A model generated the notes under the pieces. It ran no database searches. It saw nothing but the letters and a program-made list of their open reading frames with translations, and was not told where the DNA came from. The translations under genes and the position numbers were made by a program. Positions 3,794 through 14,544 of a DNA stretch of 25,748 nucleotides are shown in pieces. Source of the stretch: a virus; IMG/VR virus record IMGVR_UViG_3300048833_000037, positions 1 through 25,748 of that record. The stretch is one strand, 5' to 3'. How positions within the stretch are numbered: position 1 is the stretch's first letter; each line of letters starts with the position of its first letter.

Positions 3794-3888
3794 ATAAACT
3801 AAAAAATATCTACTTTGACATAGTACACCTTTATTTATGGTATCTACTAAGACCCTGGTTGTGGGAAACATTTAGGAGGAACAAATGA
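3790..3888 (+). CDS. Micro-protein, possibly membrane-associated
   Basis: A 32-residue frame joined to both neighbours by ATGA overlaps (3790-3793 and 3885-3888). That arrangement argues it is real despite its size. The sequence is aromatic and hydrophobic in the middle (IYFDIVHLYLWYLLRPWLW), with basic ends, like an amphipathic or single membrane helix. Its last codons carry the AGGAGG that serves the next gene. Function unknown. Confidence 0.5.
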   Translation: MNKLKNIYFDIVHLYLWYLLRPWLWETFRRNK

Positions 3889-4181
3889 ACGAGAGAGTAA
3901 AACCTGATTACAGTGTAAGAATGGGCGTAGAAGGAACTGATGAAGGATATCTACTCGATAGCCGTTACGATTTCATAAGAGTATTTCCCTGGCTACAATA
4001 CGGTATAGTAAACATTGTTACAGAAGATGGAATCCACCGATTATATACAACCGAAGAACAATGTAGACGTATACATGAAGGCTCTGGTATACCTTTAGTA
4101 GAGTTAGAATGGATAGTAGAATCAGAGCATGAGAATATGTTAGAGATAATGGCTAATGATCTTGAATCTTGGATGGAATAG
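3885..4181 (+). CDS. Hypothetical acidic protein
   Basis: A 98-residue acidic protein starting at ATG 3885 behind a strong AGGAGG. It has a beta-rich look in the middle (FIRVFPWLQYGIVNIV, then EDGIHRLYTTEEQ) and an acidic helical tail. It is the last gene of the left operon: a promoter and terminator follow at once. No family recognised. Confidence 0.7.
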   Translation: MNERVKPDYSVRMGVEGTDEGYLLDSRYDFIRVFPWLQYGIVNIVTEDGIHRLYTTEEQCRRIHEGSGIPLVELEWIVESEHENMLEIMANDLESWME

Positions 4182-4188
4182 TTGAGTG

Positions 4189-4197
4189 TGTTATAAT
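4189..4197 (+). promoter_or_regulatory. Extended -10 promoter for rep leader
   Basis: TGTTATAAT is a perfect extended -10 element (TG at 4189-4190, TATAAT at 4192-4197). No convincing -35 lies 16-18 bases upstream; TTGGAT at 4169 is poor. The predicted transcript starts near 4203-4204, where the 27-base complementary segment begins. Confidence 0.6.
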
Positions 4198-4202
4198 GAA
4201 TG

Positions 4203-4229
4203 TATCAATCGCTAGATAAATAGCCTCAA
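4203..4229 (+). repeat. Distant inverted repeat, left copy
   Basis: Bases 4203-4225 are the exact reverse complement of 6005-6027. Extending to 4229 adds one mismatch at 4226, which is a G-U pair in RNA. The two copies are 1.8 kb apart and flank the rep-like gene and two small genes. Confidence 0.9.
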
Positions 4230-4250
4230 GAGAAATCAAGAGGCTTTTTT
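4222..4250 (+). terminator. Intrinsic terminator or attenuator before rep
   Basis: AGCCTC (4222-4227) pairs with GAGGCT (4240-4245) across a 12-base loop and is followed by a six-T run. Because a promoter lies just upstream and the rep-like gene 45 bases downstream, it may attenuate rep as well as end the left operon. Confidence 0.7.
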
Positions 4251-4294
4251 CGCTTTCTAGAATCTCTTTAATTAAAACAAAACAGAGGGTATCA

Positions 4295-5095
4295 ATGAAG
4301 GGATTTTATATCCATGTCAAAAATGATTTGCTAGAAGCAAAGCATTACGAAGCTATGGGGGCTTCTATATGGCTGTATTTATGGCTATTGGACAAAGTAA
4401 CAAGTGTTGACGAAAAAGGCGTTGGCAAGGTTTTAGGCGGAAAGCCAATAGTACATAGCGAGATAGAAAAAGAGCTAGGAATGACTAGACGAAGCTATCA
4501 AAGAAATATAGAAACGCTTAAAAATGCTGGGTATATTGATACGCTCAGAACACCAAATGGGCTTGTAATAAAAGTCCAAAAAACCAAAAAAGTGTTTGGT
4601 CAAAACGACACGAAAAAGACCCAAAAAGAGCCTAAAAGTGATGTGCCAAAAAGGTGCAGCAGTGATGGAGTGATGTGCCAAAAAGGTGCAGCGATGTGCC
4701 AAAAAGGTGCAGCGATGTGCCAAAAAGGTGCATGCAATATAAGACAAGACAAGGACAAGACAATTACATTATCTAAAGATAATGGAGCAAAGGCTCTGGA
4801 ATATGGTGATCCTGTAATAAATGAAATGTTTGATTATTGGCATGAAATAATCGGCTACAAAATTGAGTCTAAAGTCAAAGCAAATCGCATGGCTTGTAAG
4901 AACCTACACAAAAAATATGGTGAAGCCAAATTAAAGCAACTTATTACTGGCGTAGCTAAAGCACAGCAGGATAGGTACGCTCCAAGAATAGGTGACTTTA
5001 TCGAGCTTCAGTCAAATATGAACAAATTACTTGCATGGGGAAGATCTGTGCAGTCACAAGAATCATCAATTAAAAGTTTTGGGAGTAAGAAATGA
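4295..5095 (+). CDS. Replisome organiser / helicase-loader-like protein
   Basis: A 266-residue protein with the layout of Gram-positive phage replication initiators. An N-terminal winged-helix region (about 10-95, recognition stretch SEIEKELGMTRRSYQRNIETL) would bind the origin. A low-complexity middle follows, with three MCQKGA units at about 127-148. A C-terminal DnaD/helicase-loader-like domain (about 172-255, INEMFDYWHEIIGY onward) would contact the host helicase. The DNA of the middle holds four copies of a 21-base repeat, so the origin may lie inside the gene, as in lambda O and several lactococcal phages. Start ATG 4295, with AGAGGG upstream. It is preceded by an attenuator-like leader and overlaps the next gene by ATGA. 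Confidence 0.7.
   Translation: MKGFYIHVKNDLLEAKHYEAMGASIWLYLWLLDKVTSVDEKGVGKVLGGKPIVHSEIEKELGMTRRSYQRNIETLKNAGYIDTLRTPNGLVIKVQKTKKVFGQNDTKKTQKEPKSDVPKRCSSDGVMCQKGAAMCQKGAAMCQKGACNIRQDKDKTITLSKDNGAKALEYGDPVINEMFDYWHEIIGYKIESKVKANRMACKNLHKKYGEAKLKQLITGVAKAQQDRYAPRIGDFIELQSNMNKLLAWGRSVQSQESSIKSFGSKK
4640..4732 (+). repeat. Four iteron-like direct repeats in rep gene
   Basis: The core GTGCCAAAAAGGTGC occurs in four copies within longer 19-21 base units at 4640-4660, 4672-4692, 4693-4713 and 4714-4732. The last three are in tandem with a 21-base period (two helical turns). The first is set apart by 11 bases and is read in a different codon frame, so conservation is at the DNA level. An AT-rich stretch follows from about 4738. 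This suggests an origin with initiator-binding sites. Confidence 0.8.
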
Positions 5096-5439
5096 TAACA
5101 GTAAGAACCAGAAAACAAGCCTACGAAGTAGAAGCAGACTATCGAGACTTTGTAGAAGAACTAAACAACGCTAAGACACCGTATATTCAGGTAAACAACG
5201 AGCTTATAAGGAAGTCCGAGATAATTGGAGTAAAAAACTCTAATGTAATTTTTGCAGATAATCTAGTTGAAGCACCTACTCAACCAGAAAAAAAACGAAT
5301 GGAAAACCTTTTTGTGTATAATTACATGAAAGCATACATACCAAGACACATGAAAAAGATAGGAAGAAAACTACAAACAGATGAGATACGGGCGATTGTT
5401 GCAGAAGCCAGAGTATCATACGCTGACGATGTTCTATAG
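5092..5439 (+). CDS. Hypothetical protein in rep operon
   Basis: A 115-residue basic protein overlapping the rep-like stop by ATGA, so almost surely co-translated with it. The first 60 residues look like alternating strands (ITVRTRKQAYEVEADYRDFVEEL, shortened here, then YIQVNNELIRKSEIIGV), and the rest is a basic helical region. A role in replication is guessed from position only. Confidence 0.7.
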   Translation: MITVRTRKQAYEVEADYRDFVEELNNAKTPYIQVNNELIRKSEIIGVKNSNVIFADNLVEAPTQPEKKRMENLFVYNYMKAYIPRHMKKIGRKLQTDEIRAIVAEARVSYADDVL

Positions 5440-5491
5440 GGGTAATATGGTACTTTAACAACTTAAATGAGGGTAAGAAAAGGACTTTGTA

Positions 5492-5734
5492 ATGCAATTA
5501 CAAATAAGTATCCAAAGAAACGTACAGTACACAGGAAAAAAGGCTCTACCAGGTAGAATCTGTTTTGATGAAAGGGATCGGATGTGCGTACAGGTGGGAT
5601 ATTGTCCAGATTGTAGAGGAAAGATAATCATGTCTATACCAGATGCAAGAAAGTTTGCTAAGTTATACGCTGGTGAAGCCTCTAAACCTTTTAGTAAATT
5701 ACTGATACGAAGTATGAACAAAAGACGAACTTAA
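5492..5734 (+). CDS. Hypothetical small protein with CxxC
   Basis: An 80-residue basic protein starting at ATG 5492, eight bases after AAAAGGA. It carries a CPDC pair at about residues 38-41 and two further cysteines (about 25 and 32), so it could hold one zinc ion. An 11-base-pair hairpin lies 12 bases after its stop. No family recognised. Confidence 0.65.
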   Translation: MQLQISIQRNVQYTGKKALPGRICFDERDRMCVQVGYCPDCRGKIIMSIPDARKFAKLYAGEASKPFSKLLIRSMNKRRT

Positions 5735-5745
5735 AACACAAAGTA

Positions 5746-5787
5746 AAAGACCGAAGGTTTAACGTCACGTCGCACACTTCGGTCTTT
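5746..5787 (+). terminator. Terminator-like hairpin
   Basis: AAAGACCGAAG (5746-5756) and CTTCGGTCTTT (5777-5787) form a perfect 11-base-pair stem. The loop is 20 bases and contains GTCACGTCG. The A-rich left side and T-rich right side could make it work on both strands, though the T-tract is short. Confidence 0.65.
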
Positions 5788-5865
5788 ATGTAGGGTATTG
5801 TAACATATTAGAAAACAAAATGAAATATCTAACAGTAGTAAAGTAAAAAATCACATAAAAAAGAG

Positions 5866-5894
5866 TTGACACAAGCGTTATGGTAGAGTATAGT
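5866..5894 (+). promoter_or_regulatory. Consensus sigma-70-type promoter
   Basis: TTGACA at 5866-5871, a 17-base spacer, then TATAGT at 5889-5894. This is the best -35/-10 pair in the window. Transcription should start near 5901. Confidence 0.8.
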
Positions 5895-5900
5895 GAAACA

Positions 5901-5999
5901 TGTCACGACGTACAATGTATCCTTTACAAACGACATAGTTTAGAAAAGTAACAGATACGAAACACGAACGCCGTGACCTTAAAAAGTCATGGCTTTTTT
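5901..5999 (+). ncRNA. Leader RNA with switchable terminator
   Basis: About 99 bases between a strong promoter and an intrinsic terminator with no credible reading frame. Its 5' end (GTCACG at 5902-5907, plus CGT at 5909-5911) can pair with 5968-5977, which includes most of the terminator's left arm. Two exclusive folds are therefore possible: terminator, or 5'-end pairing that opens it. It may be a free-standing small RNA or the attenuator of the lysin operon. No known RNA family recognised. Confidence 0.5.
5970..5999 (+). terminator. Intrinsic terminator upstream of lysin
   Basis: GCCGTGAC (5970-5977) pairs with GTCATGGC (5986-5993) through eight pairs including one G-U. The loop is eight bases and a run of six T follows. 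Confidence 0.8.
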
Positions 6000-6000
6000 A

Positions 6001-6027
6001 TTGGGGCTATTTATCTAGCGATTGATA
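6001..6027 (+). repeat. Distant inverted repeat, right copy
   Basis: The reverse complement of 4203-4229 (23 exact bases at 6005-6027 and one mismatch in the remainder). It begins two bases after the T-run of the terminator, so it is only transcribed from the 5889 promoter when that terminator is read through. Confidence 0.9.
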
Positions 6028-6178
6028 GTCACACAGAGAAAACCACTTGTAACCGTCAAGACGAATTACAAGGATCAGGTACTCAAACGAACATAACGTG
6101 AGGTTAAGTTCAAAGAAGCGTTTAGTCGGTGGGCGACTTAAAAACCTACATTAAACAGGAGATTAGCCTATCAAGTTA

Positions 6179-6679
6179 TTGATAGCACTAGCGCTGGTGA
6201 TAATCACATCATCATCGTTAGCTGAAGCAGCTCCTATTAACAACGAGAACCTAGACGTACAAATAACGGTACAAGAGGAAGTCAAGACTGACCCTCCTCA
6301 AATCGAAGTTCCACCAGTTAAGACAGAGCCGGTTGTTCAGCCAGTACCAGTAGTCACACCTACTGCGAAACCTAAACAGCCGACACCGAAGCCAACGGTC
6401 ACAGGCAATAAAGAAACATGGCTACGAGAGTCCGGTATACCCGAATCAGAGTGGTGGGCAGTAGATTACATTGTTTCTAAAGAGTCATCGTGGAATCCGT
6501 TAGCAGTCAATAAATCGTCAGGAGCATGTGGGCTTGCTCAAGCGTTACCGTGCAGTAAATTAGGCACGAACTGGTCAGACCCAGTACACGCATTGAAATG
6601 GCAATATAGCTACGTGACGAGTAGATACGGTGGTTATCAACAGGCAGTAGCCTTTTGGAAAATTAACCACTGGTACTAA
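6179..6679 (+). CDS. Secreted SLT/lysozyme-like lysin
   Basis: A peptidoglycan-cleaving enzyme of about 167 residues. A hydrophobic N-terminal segment (IALALVIITSSSLAEAA) looks like a Sec signal peptide with an AEA-A cleavage site. A proline-rich linker (about 35-75) follows, then a C-terminal domain of about 85 residues related to lytic transglycosylase / aggregation-promoting-factor domains. The likely catalytic Glu is in SKESSWNP; GACGLAQ and the aromatic C-terminus are typical. The start is uncertain. The first standard start, TTG 6179, lacks a positive n-region and sits 16 bases after AGGAGA. ATC 6170 is seven bases after it and would give IKLL at the N-terminus. No holin gene is adjacent, and a secreted enzyme would not strictly need one. 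Confidence 0.85.
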   Translation: MIALALVIITSSSLAEAAPINNENLDVQITVQEEVKTDPPQIEVPPVKTEPVVQPVPVVTPTAKPKQPTPKPTVTGNKETWLRESGIPESEWWAVDYIVSKESSWNPLAVNKSSGACGLAQALPCSKLGTNWSDPVHALKWQYSYVTSRYGGYQQAVAFWKINHWY

Positions 6680-7080: not shown

Positions 7081-7559
7081 ATAAACTAGCAACAATTAAG
7101 GTATCTGGAGGCGATTACGCAACCGTACCGACTAGGCTTAAAGCATTTAGAGAAGCTAATCCTAGAGCAAGCATTACAACCGAGCCTACGATAAACGGTG
7201 ACACGATTGTATTCAAAGCAACTATTAAGCAAGACCAAGCCGACCCTAATTCAGCAGAAGCTACCGGTCACAGCTACGGAACAAACACAGGTGGCAAAGC
7301 ATTTGAACGATTAGAAACAGTAGCACTAGGTAGATGCCTGGCGATACTTGGCTATCTAAACAACGGACAAATCGCAAGCACCGAAGAAATGGAGGACTTT
7401 GAACAATTTAAGTTAGAGAAATACCAAGCAGAGATTGACGAAGCAGAAAGCGTTGAATCACTAATGGAACTATTTAACAGAATGACACCAGAGGAAAAGA
7501 AAGTATTTACAACTTCAGTATCTGAAAAGAAAAAGGAGTTACTAGATGCAGATAAATAA
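7077..7559 (+). CDS. Probable single-strand annealing protein (Erf/Sak-like)
   Basis: A 160-residue protein whose middle (a strand-rich region VFKATIKQ, then KAFERLETVALGRCLAILGY and an IASTEEME segment) resembles phage annealing proteins of the Erf/Rad52-like group, where the ETxAxGRxLxxLGY helix is typical. Such proteins anneal complementary single strands during phage recombination. The gene directly after encodes a YqaJ-type exonuclease, and that pairing supports the call. I prefer ATG 7077, six bases after GAGGA and overlapping the previous stop, over ATG 7071, which lies directly on it. The last 45 residues are an acidic helical tail that may bind the partner. The family call is from memory of the motif, not a search. 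Confidence 0.65.
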   Translation: MNKLATIKVSGGDYATVPTRLKAFREANPRASITTEPTINGDTIVFKATIKQDQADPNSAEATGHSYGTNTGGKAFERLETVALGRCLAILGYLNNGQIASTEEMEDFEQFKLEKYQAEIDEAESVESLMELFNRMTPEEKKVFTTSVSEKKKELLDADK

Positions 7560-8178
7560 AGCCGAGCAAGGCTCAGATGAATGGCTACAAGCCAGACTGG
7601 GAAAGTTCACAGCTAGTAGAGCTGGTGACCTAATGAAGAAACAACGCAACGGTACACCATACGCTGCACGTAAGAACTACATAACCGAACTAGCACTAGA
7701 ACGCTTAACAGGTAAAGCAAAAGAAGTAGTAGTTACCGAAGCTATGTTAAACGGAACTGAAAGCGAGCGAGTAGCAGCACTAGCCTACTCATTCCATACC
7801 GGAAACGAAACCGAGCAAACAGGATTCTGGCACAACGACATTTACGGAGCAAGCCCTGATGACCTAGTAAGTGATGACGGTGGTGTTGAGTATAAAAACC
7901 CAATGCCAGCCACTCACTACGAAACATTAAGAACACAGGAAATACCAGAACACTACTACTGGCAGGTAATTCAATGCCTACTAGTAACAGGTCGAAAGTG
8001 GTGGGATTACGTGAGTCACTGTGCAGACTTTGACACTAACGCCCAACTGTTCATTAAAAGAGTGAATCGTAAAGAAGTATTAGCAGACATCAAAGCCTTA
8101 GAAGCAGAGATCAGGAAAGCCAATAAGGAAGTAGAAGAACAAGTTAAGTTCATTAAGAACTATAAGGAGCAGTCATGA
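7546..8178 (+). CDS. YqaJ / lambda-type exonuclease
   Basis: A 210-residue 5'-3' double-strand exonuclease of the PD-(D/E)XK fold, which makes single-stranded tails for annealing. The N-terminal QGSDEWLQARLGKFTAS is the family hallmark. The active site includes E74 in GTESE, the SPD at 103-105 and E115-x-K117 in VEYKNP. HYYWQVIQ at 136-143 is the conserved helix after it. A charged coiled coil ends the protein (165-205). Start ATG 7546 follows AAAGGAG and overlaps the annealing protein gene by 14 bases. Confidence 0.88.
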   Translation: MQINKAEQGSDEWLQARLGKFTASRAGDLMKKQRNGTPYAARKNYITELALERLTGKAKEVVVTEAMLNGTESERVAALAYSFHTGNETEQTGFWHNDIYGASPDDLVSDDGGVEYKNPMPATHYETLRTQEIPEHYYWQVIQCLLVTGRKWWDYVSHCADFDTNAQLFIKRVNRKEVLADIKALEAEIRKANKEVEEQVKFIKNYKEQS

Positions 8179-8309: not shown

Positions 8310-8556
8310 AGAAAACAAGACACCCAACAAGGCTGTCGCAAGCGTAAAGAACGCAATAAGTGAAGCCAACCAACTATTAAAAAACATCGAACTGTTCGTA
8401 GAAGCAATATGTCTACTAATCCTAGCCTATGCAGGTTACTGGACAGCATTCAACGTACCACTAAGAAACGAATACAAGTACGTGTTGATGTTCGCAGCAA
8501 TATTGATAGGACTACGAGGAAGCATATTACTAGTACAACGGATAAATAAGAGATAG
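8302..8556 (+). CDS. Two-helix membrane protein
   Basis: An 84-residue protein with a basic N-terminus and two hydrophobic helices, at about 32-52 (FVEAICLLILAYAGYW) and 60-79 (YVLMFAAILIGLRGSILLV), joined by a short charged loop, ending in QRINKR. Size and topology would fit a holin. However, it sits in the recombination operon about 1.6 kb from the lysin, so the holin idea is only a possibility. Confidence 0.7.
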   Translation: MSKENKTPNKAVASVKNAISEANQLLKNIELFVEAICLLILAYAGYWTAFNVPLRNEYKYVLMFAAILIGLRGSILLVQRINKR

Positions 8557-8558
8557 AT

Positions 8559-8822
8559 ATGAAAGCTAATTTAAGTAACTACAGGGCATTAGAAGATTAC
8601 TTAGACAAAAATGACATTGAATATCACAAGCTAAACGAATACCAGTACAGAATACTCGGTGAAGTAGCGATTGTAGATGTGTGGCCCGCAAGAATGACCT
8701 GTCACGTAATTCAGACAGAAGCAGTAGACCCTAACAGGTATTTCAGATTAGCTTACAACTTTAACGAGAAACAATTACAAGCAGTATTAAACGGAGAGGA
8801 ATGGAGAAAAGCGAATGGCTGA
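8559..8822 (+). CDS. Hypothetical protein
   Basis: An 87-residue soluble protein two bases after the membrane protein gene and overlapping the next by eight bases. It has a mixed helix-strand pattern (NYRALEDYLDKNDIEYHKL, then YRILGEVAIVDVWPARMTCHV). No family recognised. The tight position within the recombination operon is the only hint of role. Confidence 0.7.
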   Translation: MKANLSNYRALEDYLDKNDIEYHKLNEYQYRILGEVAIVDVWPARMTCHVIQTEAVDPNRYFRLAYNFNEKQLQAVLNGEEWRKANG

Positions 8823-13368: not shown

Positions 13369-14544
13369 ATGAGTAAAATAACCAAACTAACTTCCGAACA
13401 AGAAGAACTAATGTCTGTCGTTCGTCAAGAATGGCTAGATTGGGCTTTACTCGGAGGGGATGAAATCAACGAAGAAGATGTCAGGAGCGGAATAAACTGG
13501 CTGTACGAATTTGCAGGGTTGAAGAAACCAATCACCATTATTGTAGACAGTCCTTTGGGCGCTCAATACGCAGTACCCACGGCCAAGAAGCTTCTAGGTG
13601 GTAAACATGCCCAAGTGGATGCCCAAGTGTATGACCAAGTGTATGCCCAAGTGGATGCCCAAGTGTATGACCAAGTGTATGACCAAGTGCGTGCCCAAGT
13701 GGATGCCCAAGTGTATGACCAAGTGTATGACCAAGTGCGTGCCCAAGTGTATGACCAAGTGTATGACCAAGTGGATGCCCAAGTGTATGCCCAAGTGGAT
13801 GCCCAAGTGTATGACCAAGTGTATGACCAAGTGTATGACCAAGTGTATGACCAAGTGTATGCCCAAGTGGAAATTTTTGAGACGTTTGCATACAACACTC
13901 CTAGTTGGTATGCAGGTTGGTGTTCATGGGCAGACTTTTACGACAGAATCGAAATAGTCAAAAATCCTAATCTTAAACAATATCTTGCGTTTATGAAAAG
14001 TGGTGCATTTATGGGGATTTACCTAGACGGACTAGCAATAGTATGTCGTAGACCTCAAGCAATTCGCAGGGATAACGAAAACAGACTACATAACGACCAA
14101 AAACCAGCTATTGAATGGAGGGATGGATTCAAGCTTCATTTTCTAAACGGACTGTATTTTGAAGAAGCTACGTGGAAGAAAATAGTTAAACAAGAGCTAA
14201 CCCTAGGACAGCTCGCCAAACTAGAACTAGGAGCAGATAAAAGTGCTGTAGCTATGCAGTTTCTTCGTCCAGACCGACTACTAAAACAAGCCAAAGCCAA
14301 GCTAATCCATACAGGCATTAAAGGCACTGAGCTGTATCAAGTAGACGAGTTCACCCACCATATGACGGGTGGAGAAAAACTAGGCGATACTGAGTACTGC
14401 ATAAAGATGAAACACCCAAGCCTAGAGACGATATACATTGAATGGGTAGAACCAACCATAGGGATGATAGGTGATGCAGACCTAGCCCAAGCAAAAGCTT
14501 TTGGGATGACTAAAGAACAATACTTAATGGCGATAGAGGCGTAA
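13369..14544 (+). CDS. DUF6745-like protein with [AD]QV[DYR] repeat
   Basis: A 391-residue protein. ATG 13369 follows GAGGTG; a TTG at 13354 is in frame but overlaps the previous gene. The N-terminal 80 residues are helical. Residues 81-168 are 22 copies of a four-residue unit, always x-Gln-Val-x. The C-terminal region (SWYAGWCSWADFYDRIEIV, then GLAIVCRRPQAIRRDNENRLH) matches a family with QVxDQVx arrays, for which I recall the name DUF6745. The function of that family is not known to me. It follows the GHxHH protein by seven bases. Confidence 0.75.
   Translation: MSKITKLTSEQEELMSVVRQEWLDWALLGGDEINEEDVRSGINWLYEFAGLKKPITIIVDSPLGAQYAVPTAKKLLGGKHAQVDAQVYDQVYAQVDAQVYDQVYDQVRAQVDAQVYDQVYDQVRAQVYDQVYDQVDAQVYAQVDAQVYDQVYDQVYDQVYDQVYAQVEIFETFAYNTPSWYAGWCSWADFYDRIEIVKNPNLKQYLAFMKSGAFMGIYLDGLAIVCRRPQAIRRDNENRLHNDQKPAIEWRDGFKLHFLNGLYFEEATWKKIVKQELTLGQLAKLELGADKSAVAMQFLRPDRLLKQAKAKLIHTGIKGTELYQVDEFTHHMTGGEKLGDTEYCIKMKHPSLETIYIEWVEPTIGMIGDADLAQAKAFGMTKEQYLMAIEA
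13609..13872 (+). repeat. 22 x 12-base perfect coding repeat
   Basis: Each unit is G-[CA]-C-CAAGTG then GAT, TAT or CGT (final unit GAA). CAAGTG never varies and no synonymous change is seen. Units 4-7 (13645-13692) and 8-11 (13693-13740) are identical, so a 48-base block duplicated. This points to recent expansion by slippage or unequal recombination. Confidence 0.97.

Follow-up and report, generated by a model that had tools for sequence, protein, structure and literature searches.

Two complementary sequences in the leaders of adjacent transcription units of a phage are probably the sites through which two RNAs pair with each other, a reading that we place at about 60% from a computational analysis of two phages. 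Judged from the sequences, complementarity appears to have been kept without the sequence itself being kept, a pattern that would fit RNA-RNA pairing best, and the arrangement suggests that an antisense RNA controls the timing of lysin synthesis. In the window, by which we mean the whole stretch of 25,748 nucleotides analysed (IMG/VR record G000), positions 4203-4225 match the reverse complement of 6005-6027 exactly over 23 bp, followed by a T-G (in RNA, U-G) pair at 4226/6004 and three further pairs out to 4229/6001. The 27-base cross-complementarity between two leaders described in the initial annotation is therefore real. Exact inverted repeats in the 25.7-kb window reach 23 nt in this pair and 13 nt in the runner-up, and the longest in each of 60 dinucleotide-preserving shuffles of the window measured 13 to 17 nt. 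There are two copies, inverted relative to each other: no third copy of the arm occurs in the window at up to three mismatches, nor any below eight. Exact searches with a 19-mer of the arm in IMG/VR and with a 23-mer in GTDB genomes returned no match, and none of the Rfam 15 covariance models reached its gathering score in the window; what matches there were, both in the window region and at the related locus L044 described below, were at chance level (E up to 5).

Transcription units carrying the arms

The left arm (4203-4229, + strand; inverted repeat with 6001-6027) lies at the 5' end of a predicted upstream transcript. An extended -10 scan placed the promoter of this RNA at 4169-4197 (+), with a -35-like TTGGAT at 4169-4174, a 17-nt spacer and an extended -10 element (TG-T-TATAAT) at 4189-4197; with the predicted start at A4204, the RNA would begin AUCAAUCGCUAG. 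The earlier placement of the left copy at the very start of the RNA made from this promoter thus holds as a prediction. The copy was also said to cover the left arm of a terminator, in agreement with sequence and fold, which give a terminator-like hairpin at 4223-4250 (+; stem 4223-4227/4240-4244, T4245-4250) with its left stem side inside the arm. If the predicted RNA ended at 4250 it would be 47 nt long, with a fold of -11.1 kcal/mol. Beyond it lie the gene called "rep", which encodes a DnaD-like helicase loader (4295-5095, +; phrog_7498, E 3.2e-25), and a small conserved gene closing the upstream unit, orf5492 (5492-5734, +), a 41% homolog of which stands directly 5' of the lysin leader in L044. 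The unit ends in a hairpin with an 11-bp stem (5746-5787, +). As a separate observation, the helicase-loader gene contains four copies of an iteron-like 21-24-bp repeat, GATGTGCCAAAAAGGTGCA, at 4637-4734, which could mark a replication origin.

The right arm (6001-6027, +), which folds as a local hairpin, belongs to the leader of a putative lysin gene. A strong promoter (5866-5894, +; TTGACA-17-TATAGT) precedes a leader that is more structured between 5901 and 6002 than its shuffles (z -3.0) and that contains an early terminator at 5970-5999 (+; stem 5970-5993, T-run 5994-5999). The right arm starts at 6001, two bases past the last T, just as first noted, and among transcripts from the 5866-5894 promoter it is predicted to be present only in lysin mRNA that reads through the 5999 terminator. 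Since the arm lies beyond the terminator, pairing cannot decide termination there and would have to act on one of two RNAs, the upstream one or the lysin mRNA produced by read-through. The gene itself (6170-6679, +) encodes an SLT-domain transglycosylase (PF01464; phrog_12661) with a signal-peptide-like N-terminus. It starts about 140 nt 3' of the right arm, and the distance from the arm to the ribosome-binding site is 130 nt, so there is no obvious way for pairing to block translation directly.

The open reading frame of the lysin has no ATG, and the ORF tool placed its start at TTG 6179. A good ribosome-binding site (AGGAG, 6157-6161) stands 8 nt before ATC 6170, and a protein begun there would have the typical signal-peptide sequence MKLLIALAL...; the gene might use a rare AUC start located in a small hairpin, or the sequence might contain an error. 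Elsewhere in the window, a long 12-bp tandem array at 13560-13900 lies in an ORF, encodes (QVYD/QVDA)n and is open in several frames.

Relatives of the window and its lysin

The collections searched contained no close relatives of the window, no usable close relatives of rep, the lysin or the PDDEXK nuclease, and no relatives that could be reached via orf5492. A lysin-based search recovered the distant locus L044 (record G012, 40,490 bp), whose lysin is 50-55% identical to that of the window. It carries an inverted repeat at 3894-3912/4688-4706, exact over 19 bp and 22 bp long with one G-U pair; no other inverted repeat in the 40.5-kb record is as long (runner-up 14). As in the window, the arms are present in two inverted copies, yet their sequence is unrelated to that of the window arms except for AUCAAU at the RNA start. 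The initial annotation had named compensatory change in related phages as a check, and here both copies are altered together with complementarity kept.

The surroundings of the arms are also alike. The left RNA of L044 has a promoter of the extended -10 type at 3853-3881 (TTGTAA-17-TACAAT, TG present), with the predicted +1 at A3888, where the RNA would start AUCAAU, and the left arm beginning 3 nt past it, and the lysin promoter at 4570-4598 has the same hexamers and the same spacer bases AAGCGT as in the window. The right arm begins 19 nt past the T-run of the lysin-leader terminator. Predicted duplex energies are -43.7 kcal/mol for the window and -43.9 kcal/mol for L044 (-23.4 and -20.6 net of refolding), and G-U pairs lengthen the helix in both. 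When each lysin leader was compared with its own genome, the arm pair ranked first in both phages, with scores of 71 (window) and 53.5 (L044) against at most 48 and 47 for shuffled leaders; the longest exact complement was 23 nt against 16 in the window and 19 nt against 14 in L044. In the predicted folds of both phages, the left arm is made up of a single-stranded 5' segment and the left strand of the first hairpin, which would suit it to strand invasion.

The covarying arms support the pairing of the two RNAs that was originally proposed, though not the link between replication and lysis that was attached to it. In G012, where the left RNA enters a noncoding stretch of ~340 nt and then the orf5492 homolog, the search for a rep homolog came up empty, which means that the link is not general. 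Nor does a terminator directly follow the left arm of L044: the left hairpin lacks a T-run, and blocking of the rep terminator therefore cannot be the conserved function.

Among more remote phages, the terminase of the window defines a clade known from IMG/VR contigs. The longest inverted repeats of its members behave as operators within promoters or form close local hairpins, and none of them joins two leaders; the other SLT-lysin leaders examined are without a long pair, save for an 18-nt match in the coding DNA of L067.

These relatives show further peculiarities around the lysin. In several, two overlapping frames share the SLT lysin, the first encoding a membrane anchor and the other the SLT domain, which lacks a clear start (L031 16162-16714 in G010; L009/L011 in G003; L056; L067 4783-5213), possibly reflecting a programmed frameshift. 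Noncoding blocks of about 210-260 nt adjacent to the lysin and closed by long inverted repeats occur in G007 (7307-7562; L033), G008 (8447-8655; L035-L037, reverse complement) and G003 (28288-28517; L010-L012, reverse complement). The G007 and G008 blocks have pieces in common (CATGG..TATAAG..AGCTAGTAG..CTACTAGC), the G003 block is without an Rfam match, and the blocks might represent an undescribed structured RNA. By eye, the lysin leader of L046 appears to contain a tRNA-Leu-like sequence at about 1350-1470.

Protein sites, chance duplication and inversion as alternatives

The strongest competitor of RNA pairing, a serious one although we consider it rather unlikely, is that the arms act as DNA: both would bind one phage regulator of the upstream promoter (+1 to +22) and of the lysin unit (about +100), possibly with looping, the site being phage-specific. 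The suggestion of paired protein-binding sites was already made in the initial annotation and has precedents in this phage group. ACGGTAAGCGAAAGT stands between -35 and -10 in three promoters of G003, and AACACGACTATGCTAA or a close variant takes this position in four promoters of G010; each phage has its own 15-16-bp site, in both orientations, as an apparent phage-specific operator, and G008 has a similar repeated site. Like these, the arms are long, repeated, phage-specific sequences with inverted copies. The right window copy is, in addition, partly palindromic (8/13, reached by 1.2% of shuffles) and falls within a weak promoter-like TTGGGG-17-GATAGT. The sites in G003 and G010, however, lie inside promoters in three or four copies of mixed orientation, the several promoter copies that characterise the operator set of a repressor, whereas the arms sit in predicted transcripts (the leaders), outside promoter spacers, and number only two per genome, always inverted. 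A position just past a terminator, 84-104 nt 3' of the start site, would also be odd for an operator, and in L044 the arm is not palindromic and the right copy has no promoter-like hexamers nearby. Two further candidates for repeated sites in the window were discarded. Read as an operator copy that has diverged, the spacer of the 5866 promoter is not significant, its score being equalled by 1320 of 2000 random segments, and an ATCTAGC core, present in nine copies against 3.4 expected, lies mostly within genes and is not convincing as a repeated motif.

It is improbable that the window repeat is merely a functionless short inverted duplication and the G012 repeat a coincidence. The likeness between the window arms does continue to 33 nt (91%), and complementary pairs of comparable length turn up elsewhere, namely the 18-nt pair in L067 coding DNA and a 19-nt inverted repeat in one of 40 shuffles of G012. 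Against this, the G012 pair occupies the same two positions relative to the promoter start and the lysin-leader terminator, with unrelated sequence. The other DNA-level alternative raised at the outset, that the arms delimit a DNA segment whose inversion would flip the lysin promoter, is very improbable: inverted arms do flank this promoter in both phages, but no recombinase gene was seen among the ORFs in or beside 4203-6027, the arm sequences differ between the phages, and the flipped state would deprive the lysin of its promoter.

Possible control of lysin synthesis and known systems

Under RNA-RNA pairing, the 5'-end RNA of the upstream unit would bind the read-through lysin leader in trans. 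Duplexes of 22-26 bp are within the cutting range of RNase III, and the duplex of this length formed here might expose the lysin leader to RNase III-type cleavage or else lock it, such that leaky read-through into the lysin gene would be silenced until the upstream promoter is switched off. We favour this repression of the lysin, giving it roughly double the probability of the opposite direction, an action of the lysin leader on the start of the upstream RNA.

A second contact between the two units is suggested by the other end of the upstream transcript. The loop of the hairpin that terminates the upstream unit (window 5757-5776; L044 4479-4502) is complementary to part of the lysin-leader terminator, namely its 5' arm and loop (5968-5982 in the window), over about 15 nt in both phages and with different sequences. 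The loop sequence also recurs at the 5' end of the lysin leader itself (GUCACG in the window, GAUUCGC in L044), which could pair with the same terminator arm and act as an antiterminator. This contact, tested post hoc, is strong in local shuffle tests; genome-wide it ranks second in G012, with a score inside the null range, and in the window it is outside the top six. We regard it as rather doubtful, therefore, that the two contacts make up a two-point circuit in which both ends of the upstream transcript contact the lysin leader, so that it would gate first the read-through and then what becomes of the resulting mRNA, even though both contacts covary between the two phages.

Lysis timing is classically credited to holins and antitermination proteins. 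If the proposed pairing is correct, these phages time a cell-wall-degrading enzyme via an antisense RNA from the start of a neighbouring transcript, without a dedicated protein, and an antisense pair can persist through complete sequence turnover. The pair is short and phage-specific, and could easily be rebuilt in a reporter.

In the open-access literature we found phage antisense RNAs, one of them proposed for an endolysin gene, and did not find the arrangement seen here. There is a mechanistic likeness to the CI/seq RNAs of phage P4 and to IsrK of Gifsy-1, where a short RNA from a terminated leader pairs in trans with a read-through phage transcript (PMC4825925). Attenuated leaders and trans base pairing on a read-through transcript are common to these systems and the one proposed here, but in P4 and Gifsy-1 the RNA and its target belong to one transcription unit, whereas in the window they would come from two adjacent units and the target is the leader of a cell-wall enzyme. 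The OOP RNA of lambda, acting on cII, and the sar RNA of P22 are small phage antisense RNAs with their own promoter and terminator and long perfect pairing, and OOP promotes RNase III cleavage of its cII target (PMC12197685). OOP is encoded on the strand opposite its target, whereas both RNAs of the window would be transcribed from one strand, at two distinct sites, and their pairing would be kept by covariation of two sites. A case alike in function is PAK_P4as15, an antisense RNA of the PAK_P4 endolysin gene that was proposed to delay lysis via the endolysin mRNA (PMC12197685). That RNA is about 550 nt long and cis-encoded opposite the gene, in contrast to the short 5'-end RNA of the window, which would act in trans on a 5' leader.
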